Source: Antennarius striatus (lineage: Eukaryota; Chordata; Actinopteri; Lophiiformes; Antennariidae). Taken from it: 64,000 bases of DNA. Location of the stretch: assembly GCF_040054535.1 (NCBI RefSeq), contig NC_090783.1:1171001-1235000 (forward strand). The letters run 5' to 3'. Position 1 is the first letter of the stretch, and each line of letters begins with the position of its first letter. Below the pieces are notes generated by a model, which saw nothing but the letters and a program-made list of their open reading frames with translations, was not told the origin of the DNA and did not search any database. A program made the position numbers and the translations under genes. This document shows positions 5,611 through 60,212 of this stretch, piece after piece.

Positions 5611-7420
5611 CTAGGGGGCGCTGCTCTTCCCGCGGTGGTGCTTCCTCACCTCCTCCATCAGGTCCTTCAGGTATTGGATCTCGCGGCTGATAGACTCCGC
5701 CCTCTCGCTCAGCTCGCGGTTCCTCCTCTCCAGCCCCTCCAGCTCGGAGCTGCGCTGCTCCTGCTCCACCCGCTTCTTCTGCCGGTAGCGCGTGGCGGCC
5801 GTCTTGTTCTGCTCCATCTTCTTCAGCTTCTTCTCCACCACTTTGGGGGCGCCGGACACCGATTTGACACGGGGGGGCGGGGCAACGGTGACAGCGGGCT
5901 CCGCTTTGGAGTAGGGTTTGGTCCTGGAGGAGCCAGCTGTTGTGGGGGGAGGAGGAGGAGAGGGGAGGCGGGTGGGCGAGCCGCTGACCGACTCGATGCC
6001 GGAGTCGCTGTCGCAGTCGCTCGCCAGGGGGGGTGGGGTGTGGGACGTGGGGGGGGACACAGGGACGGGGGACGGCTCGCTCTTGTTGGCGAGCAGCAGG
6101 ACGATCTGGCCGGCGGCGGCGGGGACCGACAGGACCAATGGGCCCCCGCCAGGTTCGGGAATGACGGCGAGGGGCGGGGGGACGTCAACCTCGCTCCCCA
6201 GGTCCAACGTGTAGGCTGGGGAGGGGGGGGACGGCGAGGGGACGGGGGAGGGAGGCTCCGACTTCAACACCACCTCCTGGAGAGTCGTCGTTTCCGCCTC
6301 CTCAGACGCCGGCGGTTCCTCCTCCGGGGGGAGGGCGGGAATACCGGGCAGCAACAGCGCCAGCTCTGGGATGGCGGGGTCAAAGGTCGCAAAGTCCAGG
6401 TCCATGTGGGGGTCCAGGGAGGGGAGGAGCTCCTCGGGGGAGCCGGGGGACTCGTCGGCGGAGGAGCACGAGTCGATGAGGGAGTCCAGGTCGAACTCGC
6501 TCAGGTCGATTTTCTCCGACATCCAGTCCATGTCCACGAACGCATCGTCTGCCGAGAGAAAGACACTTATTGATAACCGATCAGAACATCGATTGATGAA
6601 CTGATAGACTTCTTCTAGGGGTTTAGAAAGTCCTCAAACAAGAAAAAAACTACACGGAACGTTAACGACACACTAAAACCAGCCTGAATGCTCTGAACTT
6701 CTCCATTGTGAAATAACAAAACCAGTTTGAAGCAGCCCTGTTGCCACACCCCCTGGCTGCCGACCAATCAGGGCTCACCACTCGCCGCGCCTAAGGCATT
6801 TACCGTAAGTGTGTTGTCTTCAGAGGAAGCTTTTCTCCTCTTAAAAGGACGTCGCATTCGCTAAACAAAACATGACGGCGAGTTTAAAACACCCCGGACA
6901 CGTGGTTGCTAGGCAACCAGACGGTTTTTACGAACGTAAACGTAACGTTAAAGTTTACAACTTTAGATTAGAATATCAATCCTCACCTTTGCTGTCGTTG
7001 GCCCCCACCTGGGCGTCGAGCCACGCCAGGGGGGGCGAGTTCACGCCGGCTTTGGTTCCCACCAGGAACGAGGAGGGAGGGGGTGGGAGGGGGGAGGGAG
7101 ACGGGGGAGGGGAGAGGGAGGCGGGCGGGGACGACATGGCGCGGTAGGGGGAGAAGGAGGGCGACCCCTCCAGGGAGGAGGAAGGAGAGAGAGCTTCATC
7201 TTCATCTTGGTCCAGAAGGGGCCCCAACGGGTCAGCCATCAGAAACGAGGGCCCTGCAGACGGGGGGGGGGGGGGGGGGGGGCATTTACGTTAAAATGTA
7301 TTTCAAACATTTTAATATTTTACTCAACACGTGTGTGTGCAGGGGGACACTCCCGTCGTGGCGCCACCCACCTAAGTACAGGGCCTCCACGTCCTCCAAG
7401 GCCAGCGGCGACAGCGTCAT
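5611..7420 (-). CDS. atf4: Activating transcription factor 4 (bZIP)
   Basis: Coding exons are 7420-7372, 7253-6987 and 6548-5611, with all splice phases matching, giving 417 residues (human ATF4 has 351). ATF4 is the bZIP factor translated during the integrated stress response; it activates amino-acid, redox and CHOP genes from CRE/C-EBP-ATF sites. The exon 2/3 junction reads [17 protein letters not shown], matching the human NNSKEDAF..DWMLEK segment. A beta-TrCP-type degron DSGIES lies near residue 287. The bZIP starts near residue 345 with [20 protein letters not shown], a near-identical match to ATF4, followed by a leucine zipper. The middle is unusually rich in proline and GC. The ATG at 7420 is chosen because it begins the exon-consistent frame and is overlapped by uORF2 as in other vertebrates; the in-frame ATG at 7239 lies inside the second coding exon. 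Teleosts have two ATF4 copies, and the a/b assignment is not made. Confidence 0.96.
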
Positions 7421-8308
7421 GGCTGCTGCTTGTGGGGGGGGTCAGTGATGGTGGCGAGGCGGGGGGCGAAACAGGAAGTGACGACAGGAAGTCGAGCGGT
7501 TGGGTTCTGCTGTCCACTGCAGCAAAGCTGAGGGTGGTCGCTGAGAGAGACCTGGGGGGAACGCAGGCGCCGTCAGACATGTTTTTTCCTACACCAACGG
7601 GGGCCCTGAACGCCACGTGGATGATAAACTAGATTTATTTGAGTTCACACTTCCTGGATCCGGTGAACAGATGCCAACTACCCGCGCTAACGCCGAAACA
7701 ACCACATCTCACCATGCTAGCGCTCCCGTGGGGGGAGGGGAGGCTAAATTTGGCTAATCTCCCCAGGCTGTGTTGACAGGAATGGCCACGCCCACCACCG
7801 GGGGAAAATACTTCCTAATTTGGTCACGGCTTTGCCGGTGGCCCCGCCCCCTTCGGTGAGTCACCGTGGAGACTGGGGGAGAGGGCGGGGTTAAGCGCCA
7901 TTTTCACAACATTGCTGTCTGTGTGCGCGCGAGAGCGGAGCGACAAGGCAGCGCGCGCCATTTTGGACCCGCCACGTTGTCAATGTTTAATAAACACACG
8001 CGCCGCGAATGATGACGTCAAAAAGATTTGGTTATAATAAACTATTATTAATAAGTGACGTCACAATATTTCTCATTAAACGGGACAACTGTTAGCATGT
8101 TGCTACCGAACACGTAGACAACAAGCTATTGTGCCGGCTAGCTTGTAAACTAGTAAACATCCGGGTACCTAACGCCTAAATGGGACATCGAAATCTACTT
8201 AAAAATATTTAAACAGAATTTATTTATCATTAAAGTACAAAAAAAATGTCTTTTTGTGAAGTCACCGGAAGTAAAACCGAGTAGAAGATAAATAAATACT
8301 TACGCCAT
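7232..8308 (-). promoter_or_regulatory. atf4: atf4 uORF2, overlapping the main start; spliced
   Basis: The start codon is at 8308-8306, followed by GC and a GTAAGT donor (8303-8298). The acceptor (CCCCCCAG) opens exon 2 at 7551. Joined, the frame runs 7551-7372 and then 7253-7232, ending in TGA, for 68 codons plus stop (5+180+22 = 207 nt). It overlaps the first 71 nt of the ATF4 coding region in another frame. The peptide begins MASLSATTLSFAAVD and later has LDFLSSL, resembling the mammalian uORF2 product in order and spacing. Known role of the family: under normal eIF2 activity ribosomes reinitiate at uORF2 and bypass ATF4; during stress they scan past it. The start context is strong (A at -3, G at +4). 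Confidence 0.85.
8013..8063. promoter_or_regulatory. atf4: Two palindromic CRE octamers in atf4 intron 1
   Basis: TGACGTCA occurs at 8013-8020 and again at 8056-8063, 43 bases apart, in the first intron just downstream of exon 1. CREB/ATF dimers bind this octamer. Function here is inference. Confidence 0.6.
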
Positions 8309-8382
8309 TTTGCCAGAAATAGCCAGTGCACTTAGCCGTTGCACTGCCGGGTTGTCGCCGCTGCAGGAGAAGCCGCGCGCCT

Positions 8383-8394
8383 TCACACCGCCAT
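8383..8394 (-). promoter_or_regulatory. atf4: atf4 uORF1 (Met-Ala-Val-stop)
   Basis: ATG GCG GTG TGA in the first 5' exon, with A at -3 and G at +4. Human ATF4 uORF1 is also three sense codons long. The uORF1 stop is 74 nt before the uORF2 start and about 210 nt before the ATF4 start in the spliced message, which suits delayed reinitiation. Confidence 0.85.
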
Positions 8395-8480: not shown

Positions 8481-8552
8481 TTATATAGAACCTCAGCACC
8501 GCCGGCGGCATTCCTCCGCCGTGTCCCTCCGCCGGAGCGATCGCCTCATTGG
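8481..8552 (-). promoter_or_regulatory. atf4: atf4 core promoter: TATA and CCAAT boxes
   Basis: On the minus strand TATATAA lies at 8487-8481 and CCAAT at 8552-8548, about 60 bases upstream of it. Transcription would start near 8457, placing uORF1 about 60 nt into the leader. A CACGTG E-box near 8432 lies within the leader. Confidence 0.6.
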
Positions 8553-17089: not shown

Positions 17090-20000
17090 ATGGAGATGAT
17101 GCTGGTCCTCCTCCCGGTTCTTCTACTGATGGTCTCGGCTTGTCCAGAACTCCCCCATGAAGGTGTGTGAAGCGTGGACTGGTCCCATCATGAACACACA
17201 CACCTTCAACTCCGTCTCTTTTCAGATCTCACCTGCTTCAGCGACTACAACCGGAACATCACCTGTATTTGGAACCACTCGTACCCGTCGGACCGTCCGG
17301 ACGCCGTGTGCACGCTCCACGCCTGGAACCAGTAAGAACCAGAGGAAAGATCTGATCTGGAGGGATTCACCTCCGTCATGACTTCAGTTCTTCTGTTCGT
17401 CTACAGAAGCTTTGGCTACGCTAACTCCTGCAAGCTGGAGCCGGTGGACGGATCCAGACCAGCGTTAGCGAAGTGTTCCGTGGTCTTTGAACACGAGTGG
17501 ACGGTGAGTCACGTCAAAACTTCGAAGACAGAATTAGTAGAAAGAAAAGGAGTAAATCATTTAGATTGAACTTCAGCTGTTAGCTAGTATTTAATCTTAT
17601 TTATTTATACAAAAATATCTGTTCTTTCCTTTTTTATTTTTTACACAGTGGCAGAAGATTCCCACGCTTTGCTAAACAATTTAAAAAAAAAACAGAATTT
17701 CACAATAAAATACAAAGTTTTTAACAAAAATTCTTGTTAGCGCTGGTTCTATTTTTCTTTTTCCGAGCATTTGATTTATTATTGACTATTGGTGGGATGT
17801 ATTGTACAAATAAACCCAAATTATCTACCGATGCTCAATCCAAGATTTAATCCGGTGGGATATTATTTCCACATGCTACGCTAAACTAACTAGAATTAGA
17901 ATGATTTGAAGTGCTGGTGATGAAAACAAAACATAAAGTGCTAAATATGTCCCCACCTTTTTTACAAACCAGTGTGAATGTGTTGAAATGCTTTCAGTTC
18001 CAGTCCTTCCACCTGGTGAACATTAGCGTTAGCTGTGACGCTACGCGGCGACGCGAGAGCATTCTGTACCAACCGTCGTGTCACAGTGAGTCGATCAAAC
18101 ATCTGGGGGGTGGGGGCTCTCGCTGCTCGCGAAGCCGATAAAACAAACTGTTTTAACTGTCGCTGCAGTAAAGCTGAGTCCCCCCCCCAAGCCGGACATC
18201 AACCGGACCGTCGTCCACTGGAGGCCACAGGCGGTGGAGCACCGACGGCTGCGCTCCGCCCTCTACCAGACAGAGCTCCAGTGGAGAGTGGGGGATGGGC
18301 CCTGGCCTGTGAGGGTCTATTTACCGTCCACGACAAACGGCGTGAACGTCAGCTGATCGAAAACGTTTTCTCGTCTCGTCAGGTTCGAGCTCATCACAAG
18401 GAGTGTCGATGGAACTGCGACTGGATGACGCCGCTTCCGGACGAACTCAAGCTAGCCGAGAAGTTCGACGTCCGCGTTCGAGTCAAGATCGATAAACCTC
18501 GATATAAGTCGGTCTGGAGCGACTGGAGCCCCGTTGCATCGTGGGTGTCGCCCAATGGAAGGGCAACGCCAACGCCACCAAGTGAGGATTGTTAAATGTG
18601 GAAAGTGGAACTGAAATTAAAATACAGTCAAACGTCGAGATACGAGTTTAATCCGATCTGAGATCGCAAGTCAAGCAACATTTAACCGATTAAAACAACT
18701 AAAATCATTTCAATCTTGAAAAAAGTCCCCAAACCCCATAAATTATAAAATAAGAACATAATTTATGCAGACTATACCTGTGTATAATCAATTATATATA
18801 AGTTACGTAAACAATGATAAAGAATTAAAAGAAACGCAAAAATCACGAGAACACACAAGCTACGTCTTTACTACACCAACGAGAACGAGATCCGGTCTCA
18901 CTGATGTTGTATCCATCCGCCAACACGTGGTGAAGAACGAGATCTGGTCCAGAAGCGGAGCGACAGCACGCATCTCAAATAACTCGTATCTCGAGGTTCG
19001 ACTGTATACAAATACATAATTCAACATAACATCATAGTATTGATAACATGAAAACTTATGCTACCATTTATTTAGCATTCTGTCAAGTTTGATGAGGTCT
19101 AGCTAATTTAATGTACCGGTAACTAAACGACATTCCTCTTTGGTGTCTTTCAGATGTTTCTCAAGTTGTTTTGGTCACCTCTGCCTGCGCTGTGTCATTC
19201 CTCTTGTTCCTCATACTCTTTAAGATTGATAAAACCACCTGGTAAGCAAGAACACCTCCCCAAGATCTGGAATAAAGAACATCCAGATCTTTGATGGTTG
19301 GAGAGCAGGGTGTCAACTTTCCTGAAGTCTCCCATCCTGTCTTTAAGGGTTTATATAGTAAAGAAAATCAGAGGACGCCCCCTTCCGAACCCAGGGAAGT
19401 CCTTCCTGCAAGACGGGGAATTCCAGGTAGAGCAGTTTACTGAAGCACAATGCTAACAGTGGGAATATTAAATCTACAACACACTAAAGCTGAGTTATAC
19501 TGTATGTTTTAGCTACTTGGGGGCAGTATAATCTAGTATTCTTTGTTCCACCAGTTTTCTTTGCGCTGATGTTTCCATGTCCTCCTGTGTTTTCAAGAAC
19601 TGGCTGGGCCCCCACTTCACCAGCGAGTCCTTCCATTCTTTCCTGAAACCCGTGGAAATCGTCTCGGTGGAAGTGACGTCCCTCGTCGACGCAGTCGGCC
19701 CCGGTGGTTTGGAGGCGACGCTACGAAAGACTATCAGAAGCAAACTCATCGACGAGTTGACGACTCCCAGCTTCTCCAATCCCATGTATTCCCATCTTTC
19801 CCCCGTCGCTGCGCCTGTGTTGCTCACCGCCGGGAATCTGGAAGCCTGCGACTCCGACGCACCGTATGGACCGGTCGGTTGTCACGTTGAAGGCCAGCAG
19901 GAACAGGATGTAGGTGAAGCGGGAGGTAGAAGAGACGCCGTCCTGAGGTGGTTCTCCGAGGGCAACACGAGCAACAGCGAGACGATACCGGTGATCTCAG

Positions 20001-20608
20001 ACTATAAGAACACGGAGAAACCCCAGCTGGAGCATCCCCGGCTCCAGAGCGTGGATTCAGGCCTGGGCAGCAGCGGACCCTTCGGTCACGACAGCCTGGA
20101 GGACGACAGCATCGACCTGACCGATGACCAAAGTGAAGGGTCCGACGGAGGGCAGGGGACGGATGGGGACGTCCAGAAGCTGCTCCGAACCGGTGGAGGT
20201 TTCAATGCTATCCAGGTTTGCTCTGGATACAAAGTTCTCAAGATAGACCCTGACCGACCAGACCTCCAGGACCACCAGGACCACAAGGACTACCAGGACC
20301 ATCAGAACCACCAGGACCCCCCGGACGATCAGTACCTCCCGAGTCTAGATTCAGGCATTAGCAGCGGGGAGCAGGTGAGTCAGGAGGAGGAGCTTGACTC
20401 CAGTGACTTCCTGTTTCCTCCTGTCGGAGCTCCTTTCAGACTTTTAGCCGGCTCCTCTTTCGCTCAGGTGGGGTCGGGTTCGAGGGGACGACCTCTTCCT
20501 GGTCATATCCTGGCGACAATCGCTCTGGCGTCAGCTGACAGTTCACTGGCGCCCTCTGGTGACGGGTACATGCCAGTGAGGCAGGAGCAAACGCTCCAAC
20601 ATGCATAA
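17090..20608 (+). CDS. il2rb: Interleukin-2 receptor subunit beta
   Basis: Nine exons (17090-17162, 17226-17331, 17407-17503, 17998-18085, 18169-18308, 18383-18581, 19154-19241, 19348-19426, 19598-20608) join in phase to 626 residues. IL2RB is a type I cytokine receptor shared by IL-2/IL-15-type signals, acting through JAK1/JAK3 and STAT5 at the lymphocyte surface. A signal peptide (MEMMLVLLPVLLLMVSA) precedes a first fibronectin-type domain with NITCIWNHS and CTLHAWNQ, close to the human IL2RB order (ISCVWSQ..CQVHAW). The WSXWS motif is WSDWS at about 213-217. The membrane span is in exon 7 (SFLLFLILF) and a proline box 1 (GRPLPNPGKS) is in exon 8. The last exon has NWLGPHFTSESF, like human KWLSSPFPSSSF, and tail tyrosines including GYMPVRQ. 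The tail is longer than in human and holds a DHQ-rich repeat. csf2rb was considered, but the ectodomain has the two-domain IL2RB layout. Confidence 0.93.
18623..19006. mobile_element. MITE with terminal inverted repeats in il2rb intron 6
   Basis: The left end starts TACAGTCAAACGTCGAGATA and the right end, read in reverse complement, starts TACAGTCGAACCTCGAGATA. The 26-base termini differ at about two positions. The ends begin and finish with TA, as expected for a Tc1/mariner-type TA target. No transposase frame lies between them, so it is a non-autonomous element of about 384 bp. Confidence 0.8.
20262..20335 (+). repeat. il2rb: Coding 9-bp repeat in il2rb tail
   Basis: Imperfect in-frame copies of GACCACCAG (Asp-His-Gln) are translated as LQDHQDHKDYQDHQNHQ. 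The repeat keeps the frame and adds a charged low-complexity segment to the cytoplasmic tail. Confidence 0.8.
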
Positions 20609-24500: not shown

Positions 24501-27500
24501 CTGACTGCCCCGAAGCAACGGACGAGATGAACTGCACCGACGGTAGCACACACACACCACACACACACACACACACACTCAAATCACATGACCACATATG
24601 CAGCCATGTGTGTGTGTGTGTCCAGGCGTCCCGTGCACAGACATGACCTACGTGTGCGCCGACGGAACCTGCCTGAAGAAGACAAACCCAGAGTGTGATC
24701 TGGTCAACGACTGCCCCGACGCTTCCGATGAGGATCAGTGTGGTGAGATCATGAGGTCATGAGAGCATGATGTGATGAGAACATGAGGACACGTGGACAT
24801 AAGGACCGAAGAACATGAAAACAGAAGGACATGATAACATGTAAAATGAGGACATGAGGACATGAGTACATGAGGGCATGAGGACATGACAGTATGAGAA
24901 AGGGGAGGACATGAAGATATGTGACCATGAGAACAAGATATGAGAACACAAAGACATGAGAACATGACAATATGAGGAAATGAGAACATGAGTTCATGAG
25001 AATATGAGAACATGAGGTCATGAGATATGAGTACACATGAACATGAACTGAGGACATGAGGACATGAGGACATGAAGAAATGAGAACATGACATGAGGAA
25101 ATGAGAACATGAGGACATGAGAACATGAGAACATGAGAACATGAGAACATGACATGAGGAGATGAGGACATGAGAACATGAGGATATGAGGACATAAGGA
25201 CATGAACTGAGGACATGAGGACATGAAGAAATGAGAACATGACATGAGGAAATGAGAACATGAGGACATGAGAACATGAGAACATGACATGAGGAGATGA
25301 GGACATGAGAAAATGAGGATATGAGGACATAAGGACATGACATGAGGACATGAGGGCATGGGGACATTAGAATATGAGGACATGAAAACATGAGGACATG
25401 AGGACATAAGGACATGACATGAGGACATGAGGGCATGGGGACATTAGAATATGAGGACATGAAAACATGAGGACATGAGGACATAAGGACATGACATGAG
25501 GACATGAGGGCATGGGGACATTAGAATATGAGGACATGAAAACATGAAGACATGAGGACATGAGAACATGAGTATATGAGAAAATGAGAATAGAAGGACA
25601 TGAGAACATGACATGAGGACAGCAGAACAGGAACTAGATTGGTTAGCTATGACCCCCCTCATATGTCAATACAAATAAAAATGCTAGTTCCTGACCATCA
25701 GCTGTGTCCCAATGCCCCCCTGTGTGTTCAGAATGCGGTCTGAGGCCCGCCCCCAGCCGGATCGTGGGGGGGGCAGATGCCGGGGAGGGGGACTGGCCGT
25801 GGCAGGCCAGCCTGCAGACTCTGGGGGTCCACATCTGTGGTGGAGCGCTGATATCCAGCCTGTGGGTGGTGTCCGCCGCCCACTGCTTCCAGGACGACCA
25901 GTAAGAAGGAAGTGGACGTAGAATGTCCTTTCAAAACAAAAGCATGTCAGCGTGCTCCATTCACAGGAATGCTAACCTGCTTACCGCCCCGTGTCTGCAG
26001 TCTCTACCCCCCCTTCCAGTGGACGGTCCATCTGGGTAAGGTGCAGCTGGACTGCTGCGGCCCTGGGGGGGGGGTGGTTCCGGTGCAGCGGATTCACATC
26101 CATCAGTACTACGACGCCGTCTCCCAGGACTACGACCTGGCCCTGCTCAAGCTGAACCGGACCGCGCCCACGCCGCCGGCCGGACACGCCAGCCCCGCCT
26201 GCCTGCCGCCACCAACCCACCAGCTGGAGCCGGGCCTGCTCTGCTGGGTCGCCGGCTGGGGGGCCGTCGAGGAGGGGGGTGAGGAGTCAGAGAACTGCCA
26301 CAGTTCACAGTTTAACTCCTGGGGAGATCTTCCCATCCATACGACGGTCTCACATCTATTTATTACACATTTGTTTTTCCTTACATTCTATTCTGACTTC
26401 CATCTGACCTCGTCTCTGACCTGAAGGAACACATCCTCACGCCTCGCAAAGTGCAGTTTTACAAACATAAAACATCTTAATGCGGACTTTTATTTGGTGC
26501 TTTTCGAGTTGTCGGTTTATTCGACGCAGCGTTTGTGATGTCATGTGGTTTTATTTTAGTCACAAGAGCAGAAGTTCATCGTTCTGTGTGACGCAGAGTT
26601 GTCTATAAAGGACTGGTCAGCCTAAACCCAACCCTAAACCTAAACCTAACCTCTAACCGTAAGCGGAACATAACCTTAACCTAATCCTAAACCTAACCGA
26701 CCCCCAAACCTAACCCCAACCATAAATCTAACCCTAACCCTAAACCAAGCCTGACCCCTAACCCAAACCTAACCTGACCTGACCTAACCTACCATAACCC
26801 AACCTAACCTAACCTAACCTAAACTAACCTAACCTAACCTAACCTAACCTAACCTAAACTAACCTAACCTAACCTAACCTAACCTAACCTAACCTAACCT
26901 AAACTAACCTAACCTAACCCAATTTAATCTAGCCTAACCTAAACTAACCTAGCCTAAACTAAACTAAACTAAACTAAACTAAACTAAACTAAACTAAACT
27001 AAACTAAACTAAACTAAACTAAATTAAACTAAACTAAACTAAACTAAACTAAACTAAATTAAACTAAACTAAACTAAACTAAACTAAACTAAACTAAACT
27101 AAACTAAACATCATCTATCATTTAAGCATCTTCGTTGGCTCACCTTCCTCTTCCTGTTCCTCTTGCGCCCCCTTCAGGCGGCGCCGTCAACGCGCTCCAG
27201 GCGGTGGGGGTACGTCTGGTCAGTGAGGAGGCCTGCATCCGCTCGTATGGTCATCTCATCACTCCCAGAATGCTTTGCGCTGGGTACCGCGATGGAAACA
27301 AAGACGCCTGCCAGGTACAGAGAGACCCGTGAACAAAACCAGGAGACGGTTAAGTCCGTTTTTCCACCAGGGGGGGTCGGGGCCTCGACCCCCACGGTGG
27401 TTAACCCCTTCCACATGAACGCTTTAGCATCTCGTCTGTTGCCAGGGAGACTCCGGCGGTCCATTGGTGTGCCAGGAGCCGTCGGGTCGCTGGTACCTGG

Positions 27501-29091: not shown

Positions 29092-30722
29092 TTAAACACA
29101 AATTAATCACAGTTAAACACGACTAAACACAAACTAAACACGACTAAACACGACTACACACGACTAAACACGACTAAACACGACTAAACACGACTAAACA
29201 CAAACTAAACACGACTAAACACGACTAAACACGACTAAACACGACTAAACACAAACTAAACAGGACTAAACAGGACTAAACAGGACTAAACACGACTAAA
29301 CACAAACTAAACACAAACTAAACACAAACTAAACACGACTAAACACGACTAAACACAAACTAAACACGACTAAACACGACTAAACAAGACTAAACACAAA
29401 CTAAACACGACTAAACACAAACTAAACATGACTAAACACGACTAAACACGACTAAACACAAACTAAACACGACTAAACACGACTAAACACGACTAAACAC
29501 GACTAAACACGACTAAACACAAACTAAACACGACTAAACACAAACTAAACACGACTAAACACAAACTAAACACGACTAAACACAAACTAAATACGACTAA
29601 ACACGACTAAACACAACTAAACACGACTAAACACGACTAAACACGACTAAACACAAACTAAACACAAACTAAACACGACTAAACACGACTAAACACGACT
29701 AAACACAAACTAAACACGACTAAACACGACTAAACACGACTAAACACGACTAAACACGACTAAACACAAACTAAACACGACTTAACACGACTAAACACGA
29801 CTAAACACGACTAAACACGACTAAACACGACTAAACACAAACTAAACACGACTAAACACAAACTAAACACGACTAAACACAAACTAAACACGACTAAACA
29901 CGACTAAACACAAACTAAACACGACTAAACACGACTAAACAAGACTAAACACAAACTAAACACGACTAAACACAAACTAAACATGACTAAACACGACTAA
30001 ACACGACTAAACACGACTAAACACAAACTAAACACGACTAAACACGACTAAACACGACTAAACACGACTAAACACGACAAAACACAAACTAAACACGACT
30101 AAACACAAACTAAACACGACTAAACACAAACTAAATACGACTAAACACGACTAAACACGACTAAACACGACTAAACACGACTAAACACGACTAAACACAA
30201 ACTAAACACAAACTAAACACGACTAAACACGACTAAACACGACTAAACACAAACTAAACACGACTAAACACGACTAAACACGACTAAACACGACTAAACA
30301 CGACTAAACACAAACTAAACACGACTTAACACGACTAAACACGACTAAACACGACTAAACACGACTAAACACGACTAAACACAAACTAAACACGACTAAA
30401 CACAAACTAAACACGACTAAACACAAACTAAACACGACTAAACACAAACTAAATACGACTAAACACGACTAAACACGACTAAACACGACTAAACACGACT
30501 AAACACGACTAAACACGACTAAACACAAACTAAACACGACTAAACACAAACTAAACACAAACTAAACACGACTAAACACGACTAAACACGACTAAACACG
30601 ACTAAACACGACTAAACACGACTAAACACGACTAAACACGACTAAACACAAACTAAACACGACTAAACACAAACTAAACACAAACTAAACACGACTAAAC
30701 ACGACTAAACACGACTAAACAC
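29092..30722. repeat. Minisatellite of 10/11-bp units with higher-order structure
   Basis: About 1630 bases of ACACGACTAA (10 bp) mixed with ACACAAACTAA (11 bp) units, roughly 160 copies. Rare variants recur together about 545 bases apart (AAATACGAC near 29588 and 30133, CTTAACACGAC near 29780 and 30324), so blocks were duplicated. Few start codons and no real coding signal. Confidence 0.95.
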
Positions 30723-34230: not shown

Positions 34231-34557
34231 GGAGTCGTTGCCGTGACGGCTGGGATGTTTTGTTACTCTGCAACGAAAGCGCAAATTACGAAGGAGACAG
34301 AAGAAGAGTTTCCAACCGCCGCTGTGGTGATGAAGGTATTTCAGGCGTCAGAACATTCCTCCTAACTCTGTTTTGATGACGGGTGGCGTTTCTGAACCCC
34401 CCCCCCCACACACACACACACACTTCAAACTGAACTGGCACTTCCTGTTTCCGTTGAGTTTTTAATTGGTCCCATTTCGTCGTGTTGGAGTTTCTTCGTC
34501 TCTTTTTCACCTTCTGCGTTCAAAGTCGACGTCATCTAGACTCCAAAGCCCGGATCA

Positions 34558-35815
34558 ACAGAACCTGGTTCAACAGAACCCGGATCAACAGAGCCCGGAT
34601 CAACAGAACCCAGATCAACAGAACCTGGTTCAACAGAACCTGGTTCCACAAAACCCAGAGCAACAGAACCCGGATTAACAGAACCCAGATCAACAGAACC
34701 CAGTTTAACAGAACCCAGATCAACAGAACCTGGTTCAACAGAACCCGGATTAACAGAACCCAGATCAACAGAACCTGGTTTAACAGAACCTGGATTAACA
34801 GAACCTGGATCAACAGAACCTGGTTTAACAGAACCCGGATCAACAGAACCCAGATCAACAGAACCTGGTTCAACAGAACCCAGATCAACAAAACCCAGAT
34901 CAACAGTACCTGGATCAACAGAACCTGGTTCAACAGAACCTGGTTCAACAAAACCCGGATCAACAGAACCCGGATTAACAGAACCCAGATCAACAGAACC
35001 CGGTTTAACAGAACCCAGATCAACAGAACCTGGTTCAACAGAACCTGGATTAACAGAACCCGGATCAACAGAACCCGGTTTAACAGAACCTGGATTAACA
35101 GAACCTAGATCAACAGAACCTGGTTTAACAGAACCTGGATTAACAGAACCCGGATCAACAGAACCTGGTTTAACAGAACCCAGATCAACAGAATCTGGTT
35201 CAACAGAACCTGGTTTAACAGAACCCAGATCAACAGAGCCTGGTTTAACAGAACCTGGATTAACAGAACCTGGTTTAACAGAACCTGGTTTAACAGAACC
35301 TGGATTAACAGAACCCTGATCAACAGAACCTGGTTTAACAGAACCTGGATCAACAGAACCTGGATCAACAGAACCTGGTTCAACAGAACCCGGATTAACA
35401 GAACCCAGATCAACAGAACCTGGTTTAACAGAACCTGGATTAACAGAACCTGGATCAACAGAACCTGGTTTAACAGAACCCGGATCAACAGAACCCAGAT
35501 CAACAGAACCTGGTTCAACAGAACCCAGATCAACAAAACCCAGATCAACAGTACCTGGATCAACAGAACCTGGTTCAACAGAACCTGGTTCAACAAAACC
35601 CGGATCAACAGAACCCGGATTAACAGAACCCAGATCAACAGAACCCGGTTTAACAGAACCCAGATCAACAGAACCTGGTTCAACAGAACCTGGATTAACA
35701 GAACCCTGATCAACAGAACCTGGTTTAACAGAACCTGGATTAACAGAACCCGGATCAACAGAACCTGGTTTAACAGAACACAGATCAACAGAACCTGGTT
35801 CAACAGAACCCAGGG
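34558..35815. repeat. 15-bp minisatellite (about 84 copies)
   Basis: The unit AACAGAACCYRGWTY is repeated with strict 15-base spacing. The array includes a 645-base (43-unit) duplication, seen from the variant block AAAACCCAGATCAACAGTAC near 34890 and again near 35535. Because 15 is divisible by 3, several frames on both strands stay open (up to 430 codons); these are not treated as genes. Confidence 0.95.
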
Positions 35816-38448: not shown

Positions 38449-40560
38449 ATGTTGGCGGCGTGCGTGCGGCTCCTGTTGCTCCTCCCCCTGGTCTGCTGCG
38501 TCCCCTCCCCCTCCAGACCCTCCAGGTACTGCCGGCGGTGCTGCGACCACGTGGAGCCCCCGTCGGCCCAGTATCACGTTCCCGAGGTCCGCACCGTCAT
38601 CAACATGACCATCCTCAAAGGTACCCCAGCCTCGTCTGGAGGACGGGACACTTTTATTTTGGCGGGGCTTCCTGTTTATTTCGCACTTCCTCAGTTTGTC
38701 TTGTGATTGTGTGACATCTGAAGTCTGTTTGGTTTATTTATGTGGCTCCAGAGAATATGTTTTGAGAAAAACAAAAGACTAAATAGAAGAATGTAAAGTT
38801 TAAATAAAGTTTAAAATTCTTCCTGCTTAGAGATTTTTTATTACAATAAAATCCTGGGTTATTTTTGTGACCTCCATGTTTGTTTGTGTTGATTTAATCT
38901 GTTTCCTGCGTGTTCAGGAAAAGCAAAAGAAACAAATACAAAGTAGTTCATCTATTTATTCAGGAACGTCATGTGAACAAACATTACGTACATATTAAAG
39001 TACAGTAACGTCTGTGTTTACGCTGCTGGTCCCTTAGAGATAAAATAACTGATAAAGAAGCCACACCCATTTCTGATCTAAGCCCCACCCACACAGAATC
39101 TATGGAAACTGATAACTTACTCACTCTTTCCTGGTGTTTGCTATTACTGTCCAGTTGTGCTGATGTAATCTGATTACTTGTGCATGTGCATTCCAAAAGT
39201 AACCCAAAAAAAAAAATTGCCTTTATCCTGCCTTTACTTCCCCGGTACGCTAGGAGTTAACCTGGAGAACGAGCTTTTCTGTTGTCGTATGTTTTATTTT
39301 GTAAGGCTTTGTTTGAACCCAAAGGAAGCAAAAATATTACAAGCGAATGAAAAATATCCCAGAACCGCAAACCCCCGTCCCATCTGGAGGGGGATTTAGA
39401 GAACATGTGGGGCTGATGTCGGCACCCGACCACAGATGCTGAGTCCGCTTCATCTGCCGGTTCTTTTGATAGCCGAACGAGTCGAGTCTGTCCTGACCCA
39501 GAATCAACCCCGAAAACCAGTCCGACCGCCAAATCGGTTGACAAAGACTGTCCCGTTTCACATTGAAGAACTTTTGTAGAGGAGGGGAACAAAGGCTGCA
39601 GGACGGGGCGTCTTTGAGTTTGGTCCATAAAATAACCGCAGGGGAAAAGAGAAACTGCTGAGTCTCTGGTTTCTCTAGTGTACAAGACAAAAAATGTAAG
39701 AACATTCCAGCTGTGCAGAGGAGGAGGAGGAGGCCTGCAGCTCCCCCAAACGAGCCTTTAATGGTGCACAAAACGTGGAGACGCACAAATACGTAGGACA
39801 TTTGTCGCACACCTATGCACAAAGACAAATCTGCCCTTTCCTGCCCGTGCACAAGGAAATTGCATCGTACAAGACCGTCCGTCTTTCTGGGTTGGTGCAA
39901 CTTCCTGATAGTTGGAGGAGATTAGGAGTTCTGGTTGTGTTTGAACTTGTGTCCACATCCAAATAAAAAAAAAGTTCACTCCTACCTTTGTTTCTTCTTC
40001 TTGCACAACCAGGGGATAAAGGAGACAAAGGTGATAAAGGTACACCAGGCAAACCCGGTCCAGAGGGATCTCCCGGGTTCCGAGGACCCATGGGACCCAA
40101 AGGCAGCAAAGGCCAGGCCGGCGCCCCAGGAGATCCCTGCAAGATCCCCCACTCTTCGTTCTCGGTGGGACGTCGCAAGGCTCTGCACAGCGTGGACTAC
40201 TACCAGGCGCTGGTGTTCGACACGGTGTTCGTCAACATCCACGACCACTTCAACATGTTCAAGGGGAAGTTCTACTGCTACGTGCCGGGGATCTACTTCT
40301 TCAACATCAACATCCACACCTGGAACTTCAAGGAGACCTACCTGCACCTGATGCACAACGACAAGGAGCAGGTGATCCTGTACGCCCAGCCCAGCGAGAG
40401 GTCCATCATGCAGAGCCAGAGCGTCATGTTCGACCTGGCGCTGAACGACGAGGTCTGGGTCCGGCTCTACAAGAGGGAGAGGGAGAACGCCGTCTACAGC
40501 GACGACGTGGATGTTTACATCACCTTCAACGGATACCTGGTAGCGCCGAGCGTCAAGTGA
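38449..40560 (+). CDS. c1qtnf6: Complement C1q/TNF-related protein 6 (CTRP6)
   Basis: Two coding exons (38449-38620 and 40013-40560) join in phase to 239 residues (human 278). CTRP6 is a secreted trimeric protein linked in mammals to adipose and inflammatory signalling and to alternative-complement regulation. A signal peptide ([14 protein letters not shown]) is followed by a cysteine cluster (CRRCC, like human CQRCC) and [12 protein letters not shown], like human IRPYINITILKG. Next come 14 Gly-X-Y triplets (about 58-99), a short collagen stalk, and a C1q domain (about 106-239) containing [30 protein letters not shown] and [17 protein letters not shown], the last nearly identical to human CTRP6. 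The ATG at 38449 follows a CTCCCAG acceptor at 38436. Human transcripts start with a longer N-terminus, so a 5' exon is likely; 36750-36842 is a candidate. A fish a/b suffix is not assigned. Confidence 0.93.
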
Positions 40561-49110: not shown

Positions 49111-52100
49111 CTAACCCTCGCTCAGTCTGGACTCTTTGTTGTAAGGGTTCTCCAGAAGGTAGCGATACCTGTCGAAGTGCTCCAGCATGTACTTGGGGGC
49201 GTACATGTGCTCTTTAGGGTCCGCGAGGGGGTATTCCTGCAGAGAGCCATCGAACCAGCCTCCGGTCTTGATCAGATCGCGGATGTAGTTGAGGTCACGC
49301 TTGTCCTCGTAGTCGCCCCACCTCGGGAAGTCTCCGTTCTGCGCCGACACCAGCTTGAAGTAGATCCCCTCGGGCGTGAAGCACCAGGAGCAGTGCCACC
49401 CGGCAAAGTGGAAGGGGCTGCCGATGGACCACTGCACCAGGATGTGCCCTGTGTCGTTCTCGTACTTACGGAAACCCGACATGGTGTAGTATTCTCGGCG
49501 GCGGAGTTTGATACCGTCGCCATCGTAGACGGCGCGGAGCATCCCCAAAGTGCAGCCGGATATGACCTCTAGGGAGCCGAACTGCTTCCAGAAAAATCCA
49601 TACAGAGACTGGATGTAGGGAGAGAAGAGCACAAACCAGAATTAGAACCAGTTATTTTGAACAATTCCTGGTGTTGGGGTACCAAGGCTACCTTGCGCAT
49701 GTGGATGGCGAAAGGTTCCGTCCAGCCGTCAAACAGCTTGAGAAAAACGAGACCCTCACGAGCTGGGATTTCGTCCGCGTCATTGATGACGAAGACATCG
49801 TCCGATCTCCCGCCGACCACCCTGGACATGCCGTTGTGTGTCAGGAAGGTACGCAGGTAGTCATCGGCAATCCAGCCGTCCTGGCGACCACCATCCGGGA
49901 AGTGGTCGAGGAACACGTACAGGATCTTGTGGCGTATGTAGTCATACGTACCGTTGAGGAGGAGCCGCAGGAAACTGGAAATAACAGATAAACCACAGCT
50001 TTTAGTGGAAACTTGAGTCCTGGGTTTATTAACGCAATGTAAGTCTTGCATTGAGGAAATAGGACCTGAATTTAGATCCAAATCCAAAATCTGGGGAGTA
50101 GTTGTGCATCCAACCAGACTTACAATAACAACAATTCACTTTTTCTTTGTTTAAAACATGATAACAAAAGACGACCTGGTAAACCTGCCAAAAGGCAGTT
50201 CCTCGGTTTGAAGTGTTTCTGGATATTTGCCAATGAGGAAGTTTCCATGCTTTCCAACAAACTTAGAATAGCTTTTAAATTCCATTTGAATACAGAGAGT
50301 TATTTGGTATAAGCCTTTATCAGACAAGGGTGTGGATTTGCATTATAAAAATAGACGTGTGTCAACAATCTCTTTTTGATCTAAATTGCTGGTGCATAAG
50401 CCATCAAATTCAACTGTGTCAACTTTCTGTCTGATAGAACCAGAGTCGGAAAGAAAGAAAGCCTTGGTGTGGTTCGTTCATCAAAACAACTCATTATCCT
50501 GCAAATAAATGACTTTTGAGGTAATTCACAGCTAAAAGAAGAGAATCCAACTAAAAATATGTCTAAATTAAGGAAAGATGCACAGTAACAGGGCTTCTAG
50601 CAAAAAAAAAGGACAACAAAGATGCCTGTTGGGTAAACGGATTCAACCAACCAAACCTTTCAACCAACAGAAGAAGCAAACCTGTTCGCCCTTTCACGTC
50701 TCTATCAACATGCTAAAAAGCACACAAAGGAAATAGTTTGAAGACACATCCCATGATTGCCAAAACCAGCCTCTCCCTCCAGCACGCCACTCTGGTTCTC
50801 TTGGTACTCTGCTGTAAAAATGCTAGAGGTATTTCATGCTGGAGAATAAAAAATAACAAATGCAAGCCAAAGACTACACAACCAGCAGCTTCTCACACAC
50901 ACCCATCTAACAATTGGTGTCTTACGTCAGAGGCCGTTTCTCTCCGTAGGCGGTAAAGTTGGATTCACAAACGAGGAAGAGGTCGACGGCTTGGGCCAAC
51001 TCGTGGAAGCGTACGTGCAGTAGGTCAAACTCGTGGTTGACGTTGATGGCGTTGATGACCCTTCGCGGGGTCTCTCTGGGTGTAAGGCGCTCCTTGGTGG
51101 GCAGGTTGGAGTGGTACACCATGGTGGGAACCCCGCAGTAAGGTCCGTGCCATCCCGGACGACACACACACTTGACCAGGCGCTTGCCGTTGCCCCTTGA
51201 TCTCGCCTTGGCCTTTGGGGTAATAGAAGGCTGTTGCTGGACGTCCAGAAGTTTCCGTTGTCCCGCGGGCCCGGCTCGGGCACCCTCCCCAACTCTGTCG
51301 GCCATGGATGCCCCCGATTTTTCGTTATACTCTTTCGGGGCAGCCACCTCCGTCCCCTGCCTGAAACAAAGTGCTCCAGCTTTGGTTCGGACAAAATAAG
51401 GGGTCTTGTCATCTTGAAGCTGGTGGGTGCGGGTGTGGAGATCGCCCATAATTCTTTCCGCAGTGTCCGGCAGTCTATCCTTGTGTGCCCCCTGGTGCTC
51501 CCTCCCCAACGGGACCTCTGGTAGCTCGGGTCCAGAAGGTTGTGATAGCTGGCTGGGATTCCGTGTTTTCAGGATGTCTTCAGCTCCACCCTGAAAGGAC
51601 AAATGAGAGTTTTAAAACTGCAACCCACTCATGATGAAATGACTCTACACTTGAACTTTTGTACTGGAAGCTGCGCATATTTTTCGTTATTCCAAGACTT
51701 AGTTTTGTTTTATTAAACTTGCTCTATATGTAAGATGAGCTCTTGGCACCTCAGAGCTATTTATGAGTTGAAGATACCGAACAGCAGACATTCAACTTAT
51801 CTGATTTAAACCAAATCTGTCTGTTCCTACAACTGAAGGAGATCCAAGCTTGTTTTTGTCAGGACTGATGCCAACATCCCAGAAGGGGAAGCTGCACACC
51901 AAATGTCTCGCTCCTTCAAGTACTTTTGAAACAGAACTGCAGCGGAGTGAAGGACATCCTCCTCCGAAGAGGTCACGTGTGGGGTAAGGAAACAATCTAA
52001 CCTCGTTTGGGGCGTCACCCCGCTGATGGTTTTCCGGTATCTCCCAGGGGTGAGGAGGCGCTGGTTCTTCCCTCAGAGGGTTGCTGCCCATCCCTCGTCC

Positions 52101-52370
52101 TCCCCTAGGTTCGGCGTTGACGTCCAACTGATGGAGCACAGGTAGAGGAGGAGCCTCCTCCGGGGAGGCAGGGCTGAGTGGGGTGGTGGCCACGCCCTTC
52201 TCCCTCCAGAAGAAGTCGGTGACCATGATGAAGGACTTGATGTTGGGGTACGGGGCAGAGAGCTCACGCAGCAGGGAGACGTAGTGGAGGGCCTTGTAGT
52301 AATGGAGGAAGGAGATGACGCACAGGCCCACTGTGCACAGCAAGAACACCCGATGCCGCCGCATCTTCAT
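49111..52370 (-). CDS. mgat3: Beta-1,4-mannosyl-glycoprotein 4-beta-N-acetylglucosaminyltransferase (GnT-III)
   Basis: Four coding exons (52370-52002, 51590-50926, 49974-49692, 49608-49111) join in phase to 604 residues (human 533). GnT-III, a family GT17 Golgi type II enzyme, transfers bisecting GlcNAc from UDP-GlcNAc to the core beta-mannose of N-glycans. The start MKMRRHRVFLLCTVGLCVISFLH matches human MKMRRYKLFLMFC.. and gives the membrane anchor; an acceptor (CCTTCCAG) ends one base before this ATG, so a 5' untranslated exon lies further right. Conserved blocks include PYFVRTKAGALCF, CVCRPGWHGPYCGVPT, RRVINAINVNHEFDLL, VCESNFTAYGE, RQDGWIADDYLRTFL, DADEIPAR, WHCSWCFTPEGIYFKLVSAQ and FPRWGDYEDKRDLNYIR. 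The stem between anchor and catalytic domain is longer and less conserved than in human. Mammalian MGAT3 coding sequence is contained in one exon, so the three introns here are notable. Confidence 0.96.
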
Positions 52371-53889
52371 CCTGGAAGGACAGGAAGGTGAGGAAGAGGA
52401 GAAACAACAGGAAACTACAAACATTTGCCTCCTAAATGACCTCAACAAGCAGATCTGGACCGGATCTGGACTTCCTGAATCTGGTTAACCGCTGCAAAAT
52501 TAAAATGACTATGGGGTAGCAAAAAAGATCCGTATTTTACCCTTCAAACTCTGCCTTTTAAGACTCAGGTTTTCCAGTTTGCCTCCAGGAATTACAACAA
52601 TGTAGCTGAGGAGAGGCAAAAAGTACTTCAGCCTCATGTCCTTTTAAAAATGCTAACAGGGTTAGCTTGATTTAATTATGGACGCCTGGCATGAGCCCTG
52701 TTTTGTAGTTGGTGGCTGTAATGGAGGTCCAGGACAGAAAGAGAAGCATTTCTTTACTGGTGATCCTCAGATTGCAGAGAACTCGTTGAGGAATGACAAT
52801 GTCCTGCAAATGTAGGGATTTCGGATAATCCTCATCAAGTCCAGCTTGTTCAAACCGGACTGGACTTGAATGAAACACAAATTTGTGTCTGTCTTGGCTT
52901 TAAATCACGTTGTCTTCAACATCACTGCACTTCTTCTTTACTTTAAAGAGGTGAAAAGGAAGCGTTAGCAGTCCAAACTGGTTTTTTAAAGACTATACAC
53001 CCCACCGACACAACAATAAGATGAGTCACACACTGAAAGGAAGAGGTGGAGGGAACCGATGCTGACGTGAGGTCGGTGATAAGTTCTCAGGTTTCTGCAG
53101 AACCTGACGTAGCAGCGACCAGCTCGAAACGTAATTACGTTGGATGTCATTACAACCTGCAACACCCAAGACGAGTAGAGCGATGCAACGGTAAATACAA
53201 ACGCAGGAGTTCAGGTTTCCAAACTAACTGAGGTAATGCTTTACAAACGCTGATCAAAGGACGAGGAGGGGCTTTGATCAATCAATACATACTGCTTTGA
53301 TCTATAACCCAACTACAGATACCCGCCGGGAAAGGAAAGCCAACCCCACACCAGGATGTAGACACATTCATCCAGTATTAGTAGACTTTGAGGAAACCTG
53401 TCATCCGTCACTTACAAATAGATGGGTCTCAGGAGTCGAACCAGTGCCTTCTGCAGAATCAGAACCAGGGTGCCTCTGGACCAAGACATGATGGAAGACG
53501 TTACTCCAGTGTGTTCACAACAGTGTTCATACATGAGTGCTAGGAACAACCTCTCAGGGGCAAAGCTAGGCAACAGGAAAGAATGGTGCTTGTCTGGTTT
53601 TGTCAGAAACTCTCTTTGTTACTAGGAAACTCATGTTTTCAGGTCGACACCTTCAACAGCAAATGTTAAAAAAACAGTTCTAAACCAGTTAGTGAGTTTT
53701 CACCAGATGACACATGACCAAGAATGTAAGTCATGAACTCTGGACTGTGCAGAAGTCTTCTTCCTGGGTGTCGTAGCAGACGTGCTACCTGAAGGACCGT
53801 TGGAGGTCCAGTGGAGTCCCAGCTCCCACAGACATCACAGATTTGAATATTTTTTTTGTGGTAAATTGTAAGTAAGTGGTGGCTGTAAA

Positions 53890-58517: not shown

Positions 58518-60212
58518 TAGGATGGGATGGGTTAGAAACGTTAGGATGGGTTAGAAACGTTAGGATGGGTTAGAAACGTTAGGATGGGTTAGAAACGTTA
58601 GGATGGGTTAGAAACGTTAGGATGGGTTAGAAACGTTAGGATGGGTTATAAACGTTAGGATGGGTTAGAAACGTTAGGATGGGTTAGAAACGTTAGGATG
58701 GGTTAGAAACGTTAGGATGGGTTAGAAACGTTAGGATGGGTTAGAAACGTTAGGATGGGTTAGAAACGTTAGAATGGGTTAGAAACGTTAGGATGGGTTA
58801 GAAACGTTAGGATGGGTTAGAAACGTTAGGATGGGTTAGAAACGTTAGGATGGGTTAGAAACGTTAGGATGGGTTAGAAACGTTAGGATGGGTTAGAAAC
58901 GTTAGGATGGGTTAGAAACGTTAGAATGGGTTAGAAACGTTAGGATGGGTTAGAAACGTTAGGATGGGATAGAAACGTTAGGATGGGTTAGAAACGTTAG
59001 GATGGGTAAGAAACGTTAGGATGGGTTAGAAACGTTAGGATGGATTAGAAACGTTAGGATGGGATAGAAACGTTAGGATGGGATAGAAACATTAGGATGG
59101 GATACAAACGTTAGGATGGGTAAGAAACGTTAGGATGGGTTAGAAACGTTAGGATGGGTTAGAAACGTTAGGATGGGTTAGAAACGTTAGGATGGGTTAG
59201 AAACGTTAGGATGGGATAGAAACGTTAGGATGGGTTAGAAACGTTAGGATGGGTTAGAAACGTTAGGATGGGTTAGAAACATTAGGATGGGTTATAAACG
59301 TTAGGATGGGATAGAAACGTTAGGATGGGATAGAAACGTTAGGATGGGTTAGAAACGTTAGGATGGGTTAGAAACGTTAGGATGGGTTAGAAACGTTAGG
59401 ATGGGTTAGAAACGTTAGAATGGGTTAGAAACGTTAGGATGGGATAGAAACGTTAGGATGGGTTAGAAACGTTAGGATGGGTTAGAAACGTTAGGATGGA
59501 TTAGAAACGTTAGGATGGGATAGAAACGTTAGGATGGGTTAGAAACGTTAGGATGGGTTAGAAACGTTAGGATGGGTTAGAAACGTTAGGATGGGTTAGA
59601 AACGTTAGGATGGGTTATAAACGTTAGGATGGGATAGAAACGTTAGGATGGGTTAGAAACGTTAGGATGGGTTAGAAACGTTAGGATGGGTTAGAAACGT
59701 TAGGATGGGTTAGAAACGTTAGGATGGGTTAGAAACGTTAGGATGGGTTATAAACGTTAGGATGGGTTATAAACGTTAGGATGGGATAGAAACGTTAGGA
59801 TGGGATAGAAACGTTAGGATGGGATAGAAACGTTAGGATGGGATAGAAACGTTAGGATGGGATAGAAACGTTAGGATGGGTTAGAAACGTTAGGATGGGT
59901 TAGAAACGTTAGGATGGGTTATAAACGTTAGGATGGGTTAGAAACGTTAGGATGGGTTAGAAACGTTAGGATGGGATAGAAACGTTAGGATGGGTTAGAA
60001 ACGTTAGGATGGGTTATAAACGTTAGGATGGGTTAGAAACGTTAGGATGGGTTAGAAACGTTAGGATGGGATAGAAACGTTAGGATGGGTTATAAACGTT
60101 AGGATGGGTTAGAAACGTTAGGATGGGTTAGAAACGTTAGGATGGGTTATAAACGTTAGGATGGGTTATAAACGTTAGGATGGGTAAGAAACGTTAGGAT
60201 GGGATAGAAACA
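58518..60212. repeat. 19-bp minisatellite, about 89 copies
   Basis: The unit GTTAGGATGGGTTAGAAAC is repeated without spacers. Variants in the middle (TTATAAAC, ATAGAAAC, TAAGAAAC) are scattered and partly clustered. Confidence 0.95.

Follow-up and report, generated by a model that had tools for sequence, protein, structure and literature searches.

The window (the whole stretch of 64,000 nt that was analysed) carries an atf4 gene, whose coding strand is the minus strand and whose main open reading frame (ORF) starts at 7420 and, after joining of three coding exons, encodes 417 amino acids followed by a stop codon. The bZIP domain of the product scored over the Pfam cut-off and matched human ATF-4 (1ci6; E 2.9e-19, 44/62 residues identical), and by sequence similarity the main ORF is ATF4. 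The features of the gene and of its leader, which contains two upstream ORFs (uORF1 and uORF2), are listed below in the order of transcription; C16 denotes a second atf4 copy of the same genome.

8481..8487, minus strand: TATATAA, likely TATA box, 93 nt 5' of uORF1
8383..8394, minus strand: uORF1 (MAV*, ATGGCGGTGTGA), strong start context with A at -3 and G at +4
8324..8346, minus strand: inverted repeat between uORF1 and uORF2, CAGTGCA-N9-TGCACTG, also found in the C16 atf4 spacer
8304..8308, minus strand: uORF2 ATG and the two bases after it, with which exon 1 ends; donor GTAAGT from 8303
7552..8303, minus strand: intron 1, 752 nt, splice sites placed from sequence and homology
7372..7551, minus strand: exon 2 of 180 nt, carrying the bulk of uORF2 together with the 49 nt that open the ATF4 coding sequence
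7254..7371, minus strand: intron 2, 118 nt, within the uORF2/ATF4 overlap, absent from C16 atf4
7232..7253, minus strand: end of uORF2, its last 22 nt, in exon 3, with TGA at 7234-7232
6987..7253, minus strand: atf4 exon 3, in the joined ATF4 frame
5611..6548, minus strand: coding part of atf4 exon 4, with bZIP domain and stop

Further ORFs of the window are as follows.

18020-20608: IL2RB-like ORF, with a receptor-domain match below the cut-off at 18020-18595
25852-26424: TMPRSS6-like trypsin ORF (Pfam trypsin)
39967-40560: C1q/collagen protein ORF (Pfam C1q/collagen)
49111-52484: MGAT3-like ORF, read from the ORF

The names IL2RB, TMPRSS6 and MGAT3 are tentative, and the order of these neighbours (18020-52484) presumably resembles human 22q12-q13. 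Three large minisatellites were also observed, at 34549-35811 (units of 30, 45 and 75 nt, with several frames open on both strands), at 58525-60211 (19-nt unit, about 89 copies) and at 29114-30722 (10-nt unit, about 157 copies). No Rfam family and no tRNA was matched when the window was scanned for them.

The leader follows the arrangement expected of atf4. The start context of uORF1 is GCTACGATGG, and uORF1 is a short, 5'-proximal frame of three codons whose coordinates in the original prediction, 8394-8383, agreed base for base with the sequence. Since TATATAA lies 93 nt before it, a transcription start downstream of 8394 appears unlikely; in C16 atf4, TTATATTA is located 86 nt 5' of uORF1. 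The ATG of uORF2 (8308-8306) follows uORF1 after 74 nt, as had been predicted, and its position only five bases before the exon 1 donor was borne out by ATGGC^GTAAGT at 8304/8303; the intron-1 acceptor is CCCCCCAG^GTCTCT at 7552/7551. Recomputing the spliced reading (joins 8304/7551 and 7372/7253) returned the 68 codons and the 71-nt overlap with ATF4 that had been claimed, with ATF4 in frame +1 relative to uORF2. In this reading uORF2 crosses two introns, and its crossing of intron 2 is an addition to the earlier description. The C16 uORF2 stop, CATGGCTGA, aligns with the stop of the window uORF2 to the base. The spliced leader from 8470 to the ATF4 start contained no ATG beyond those of uORF1 and uORF2; thus there is no start-stop uORF0 before uORF1.

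Intron 2, which we take to be extra relative to the human ATF4 gene structure, contains a run of 21 C at 7282-7262, 8 nt before exon 3, which is likely to be prone to indels in reads and assemblies. A repeat origin of this intron was rejected, as its 118 nt matched only themselves in a search of the genome at E 0.001. A second AG is found 11 nt into exon 2 (7551-7541, TCTCTCTCAG^CGACC) and is a possible alternative acceptor; use of the site at 7541 would shorten uORF2 to 42 codons and let its TGA share two bases with the ATF4 start codon, a coupling geometry. At the start of C16 exon 2, no AG is found at the corresponding place.

To place the window copy among its relatives, the genome of this one fish (548 Mb) was searched. 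With the beginning of ATF4 exon 4 as query, two matches were obtained, the window gene and C16, and with the C-terminal part, bZIP domain included, four, namely these two and the loci C6 and C13; the four genes are related and hence non-independent cases. The ATF4 proteins of C16 and the window are identical at 185/388 residues, which fits an old duplicate, and their fourfold sites (27/98 identical) are saturated; the pair may date from the teleost genome duplication. The bZIP domains of C6 and C13 are identical at 66/70 residues, compared with 38/64 against the window copy, and we took both genes to be ATF5-like from a presumed resemblance to the human ATF5 protein. A PDB match, run for C6 alone, placed ATF-4 nearest. 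The leaders of the four genes are compared below.

Window atf4: uORF1 MAV, spacer 74, ATGGC^GTAAGT, intron 752, uORF2 68 aa, overlap 71
C16 atf4: uORF1 MAV, spacer 76, ATGTC^GTAAGT, intron 708, uORF2 63 aa, overlap 83
C6 atf5-like: uORF1 MAL, spacer 78, ATGGG^GTGAGT, intron 473, uORF2 55 aa, overlap 80
C13 atf5-like: uORF1 MAL, spacer 83, ATGGA^GTAAGT, intron 874, uORF2 64 aa, overlap 83

In all four genes (4/4), uORF1 has three codons, exactly two bases separate the uORF2 ATG from the exon-1 donor, the exon-2 side opens with GT, and the frame of the main ORF is +1 relative to uORF2. The C16 leader has kept this plan despite the divergence of the two ATF4 proteins and of their fourfold sites. 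Both the uORF1/uORF2 architecture and the assembly of uORF2 by splicing, put forward in the original prediction, are supported by the window gene and by three paralogues of the same genome. At C13 the uORF2 start consists of tandem in-frame ATGs (CAATGATGGA^GTAAGT), and uORF2 may begin one codon earlier there. Because intron 1 interrupts the second codon, the complete uORF2 would be present only in spliced RNA. The shared ATGNN^donor in 4/4 genes suggests that the splice-built uORF2 probably predates the ATF4/ATF5 split, and the simplest account of the sequences is that the intron in the second codon is probably older than that separation, its position having been inherited from before it. Intron positions are usually conserved in vertebrates, so a shared position is no proof of regulatory splicing.

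Left unspliced, uORF2 reads ATG NNG TRA, a frame of two codons, in 4/4 genes (window: ATGGCGTAA). Regulated retention of intron 1 could therefore act as a switch that swaps the overlapping uORF2 for this two-codon uORF and so alters ATF4 under stress, and human ATF4 has two mRNA forms, of which V1 carries an additional segment inside its 5'UTR, so that one and the same site has the number 1984 in V1 but 1394 in V2 (PMC12839439). That this segment corresponds to intron 1 is a guess. A GTRAGT donor two bases after an ATG, however, makes the two-codon stop automatic, with no need of selection, and 11 and 17 further ATGs lie inside intron 1 of the two atf4 copies, so that intron-retained RNA should yield little ATF4; we regard such a switch as highly improbable. 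Because the intron sits in the second codon of uORF2 in the four atf4/atf5-like genes identified, cDNA reporters leave splicing out of the control being tested. The portions of the literature available on the ATF4 uORF2 intron, on intron retention and on fish gene structure contained no statement of an intron-split uORF2.

The extent to which such a leader could arise by chance was assessed by shuffling the leader (291 nt) 20,000 times at constant dinucleotide composition. Some overlapping out-of-frame uORF was present in 36% of the shuffled leaders (n=20,000), which would be in line with both uORFs being functionless chance ORFs of the leader. Exactly two ATGs forming a short uORF and then an overlapping out-of-frame uORF were found in just 1.7% of the 20,000 shuffles, and the strict architecture, with limits on length and spacing that were chosen after seeing the gene, in 0.18%. 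The recurrence of the same splice position in 4/4 paralogues and the reporter tests performed by others in zebrafish (PMC8547220) likewise argue against chance ORFs, an explanation that we find scarcely credible. The openness of the uORF2 frame is by itself weak evidence and not remarkable, since shuffling the exon-2 part of the leader 5,000 times left the frame open in 62% of cases. Among the 51 GTRAGT sites of the window, a single one (1/51) has an ATG at -5 to -3, and this is the uORF2 donor.

The original prediction also held that the start of the uORF2 peptide resembles that of mammals and that selection acts on the peptide or on its nucleotide context. The human uORF2 sequence used for comparison is an assumed one. 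With one published position as anchor, three others match it, as does a printed primer, whereas five strings taken from it were not found in print in a literature text search. The window uORF2 resembled the assumed human sequence over its full length (z 3.4, p 0.0025) and outside the overlap (p 0.03), so the likeness holds for this copy, but C16 resembled it over the full length only (z 2.4, p 0.02) and not outside the overlap (p 0.58). Between window and C16, the whole uORF2 scored z 5.9 (p 0.0005), a value that includes the ATF4-coding overlap; all full-length scores cover this part, in which ATF4 coding also fixes the bases. With the overlap excluded, the peptide similarity of the two fish copies in the uORF2 frame did not rise above that of shuffles (z 1.4, p 0.09), and both remaining frames of this stretch scored higher (z 2.3 and z 4.1); these frame controls cover the window and C16 atf4 copies.

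The codons point in the same direction. In the best block, TLSFAAVDS versus TLTTAAFDS, the three codon positions match at 7, 7 and 8 of 9, and the codon, third base included, is identical at 6/6 shared residues (p about 0.005, for a block picked afterwards), as against 68/164 identical residues with the same third base in ATF4 outside the overlap. Over the first 20 codons of window and assumed human uORF2, identity by codon position was 11, 10 and 13 of 20, and the codon was shared at 6/7 common residues (Met excluded). Conserved third bases and higher scores in the other frames suggest that the conservation of uORF2 lies at the RNA or DNA level, in the nucleotides rather than in the peptide, and constraint on the RNA fits the sequences better than peptide selection. 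The claim of selection thus stood in its nucleotide half and not in its peptide half: a functional or stalling micropeptide would explain the resemblance of the window N-terminus to human uORF2, yet the frame controls and the codon comparison in the two atf4 copies lend it no support, and we consider it improbable.

The spacer between uORF1 and uORF2 contains the perfect inverted repeat CAGTGCA-N9-TGCACTG in both atf4 copies, with loops of equal length in which 3/9 bases are alike (by eye). A 7-bp repeat of any kind occurred in both spacers in 0.28% of 20,000 paired shuffles, and a 9-mer was shared between the spacers in 1.7% of 20,000. The pattern was found at 16 places in 548 Mb, two of which are the atf4 spacers, compared with 6 for a reversed control pattern; as it was defined from the two atf4 copies, this count speaks to rarity and retention, not to function. 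No covariation was seen in the repeat arms between window and C16, so an RNA stem and a DNA site are indistinguishable here, and the folds of the whole spacers were not unusual (z 1.0 and -1.3 for the two atf4 copies). The TGCACTG arm is presumably a seed match of miR-148/152. In the spacers of the atf5-like genes C6 and C13, perfect inverted repeats of 5 or 6 bp (loop 3-20) were absent, and the assumed human ATF4 spacer does not have the repeat. Its retention in both atf4 copies points to an element between uORF1 and uORF2, of which the portions of the ATF4 literature available made no mention. If functional, the element would be of direct relevance to how the reinitiation clock is set.

Two further folds were noted. 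The segment 8323-8304 (GCTATTTctggcaAAATGGC) is predicted to form a 7-bp stem, one of its pairs being G-U, in which the uORF2 start codon and the last bases of exon 1 are buried; this stem is not part of the C16 spacer fold. In human ATF4, ribosomes are slowed by the structure SL3, which lies where uORF2 and ATF4 overlap (PMC11058473). The best 45-nt fold window of the leader region also lies in the overlap in both fish copies (window -19.6, C16 -20.2), and that of the window spans the exon 2/3 junction (z -2.7, 4/500 shuffles as low, picked from all windows) and needs splicing, because its 3' arm is drawn mostly from exon 3. The fold of the whole overlap was at shuffle level (window z 0.17, 277/500 shuffles as low; C16 z -1.1), and C16 had z -0.8 at the place corresponding to the window hairpin; we therefore do not claim an SL3-like hairpin made by exon 2/3 splicing.

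We conclude, with a probability of roughly 0.9, that the window contains the 5' leader of one of two fish atf4 copies and that this leader works by delayed reinitiation, its translation behaviour being taken by analogy from zebrafish and mammals. The three-codon uORF1 would be translated first, after which ribosomes would resume scanning. With plentiful eIF2 ternary complex they would reinitiate at uORF2, read across the ATF4 start in another frame and leave ATF4 off; with eIF2 phosphorylated, reinitiation would come late, uORF2 would be skipped and ATF4 would be made. As exon 3 continues for 245 nt past the uORF2 stop, reading of uORF2 should, by the general rule, expose the atf4 mRNA to nonsense-mediated decay. 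A more extended proposal would hold that uORF2 has been a spliced product since before the ATF4/ATF5 split, that splicing is a precondition of repression which intron-1-retained RNA escapes, that an additional conserved stem-loop in the fish atf4 spacer tunes the timing of reinitiation and that constraint on uORF2 acts on the RNA and not on the peptide; in this combined form it seems to us rather doubtful.

Delayed reinitiation at this type of leader has precedents in fish. In zebrafish, the atf4a and atf4b leaders were aligned with the human one and tested by ATG-to-AGG mutation in reporters, in which mutation of the uORF1 start inhibited induced expression and mutation of the uORF2 start led to high, stress-independent expression (PMC8547220). 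A positive uORF1 and an inhibitory uORF2 in duplicated genes correspond to the situation described here, and conservation of the ATF4 uORF switch in fish is thus not new; the reporters carried part of uORF2, and exon borders are not stated in the accessible parts of that paper (PMC8547220). Given a textbook switch and the zebrafish precedent, our finding is mostly confirmation, and its new content consists of the splice position shared by 4/4 genes and the inverted repeat of the spacer.

The mammalian ATF4 leader, on which delayed reinitiation was reportedly established by Lu 2004 and by Vattem and Wek 2004, resembles that of the window in its three-codon uORF1 and its overlapping, out-of-frame uORF2. 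We take human uORF2 to have 59 codons, compared with 68 in the window copy, and human ATF4 to share an overlap of 83 nt with C16, as against 71 in the window copy. The window copy differs from mammalian ATF4 in missing the start-stop uORF0, which is typical of most mammals and absent from mouse and a few others (PMC11058473). Since these species lack it, uORF0 does not define an ATF4-type leader. The ATF5 leader is the sister system of the ATF4 leader, and the atf5-like genes C6 and C13 share with atf4 the three-codon uORF1 and a uORF2 split after ATGNN, while differing from it in a uORF1 that encodes MAL instead of MAV and in a spacer without a perfect inverted repeat.
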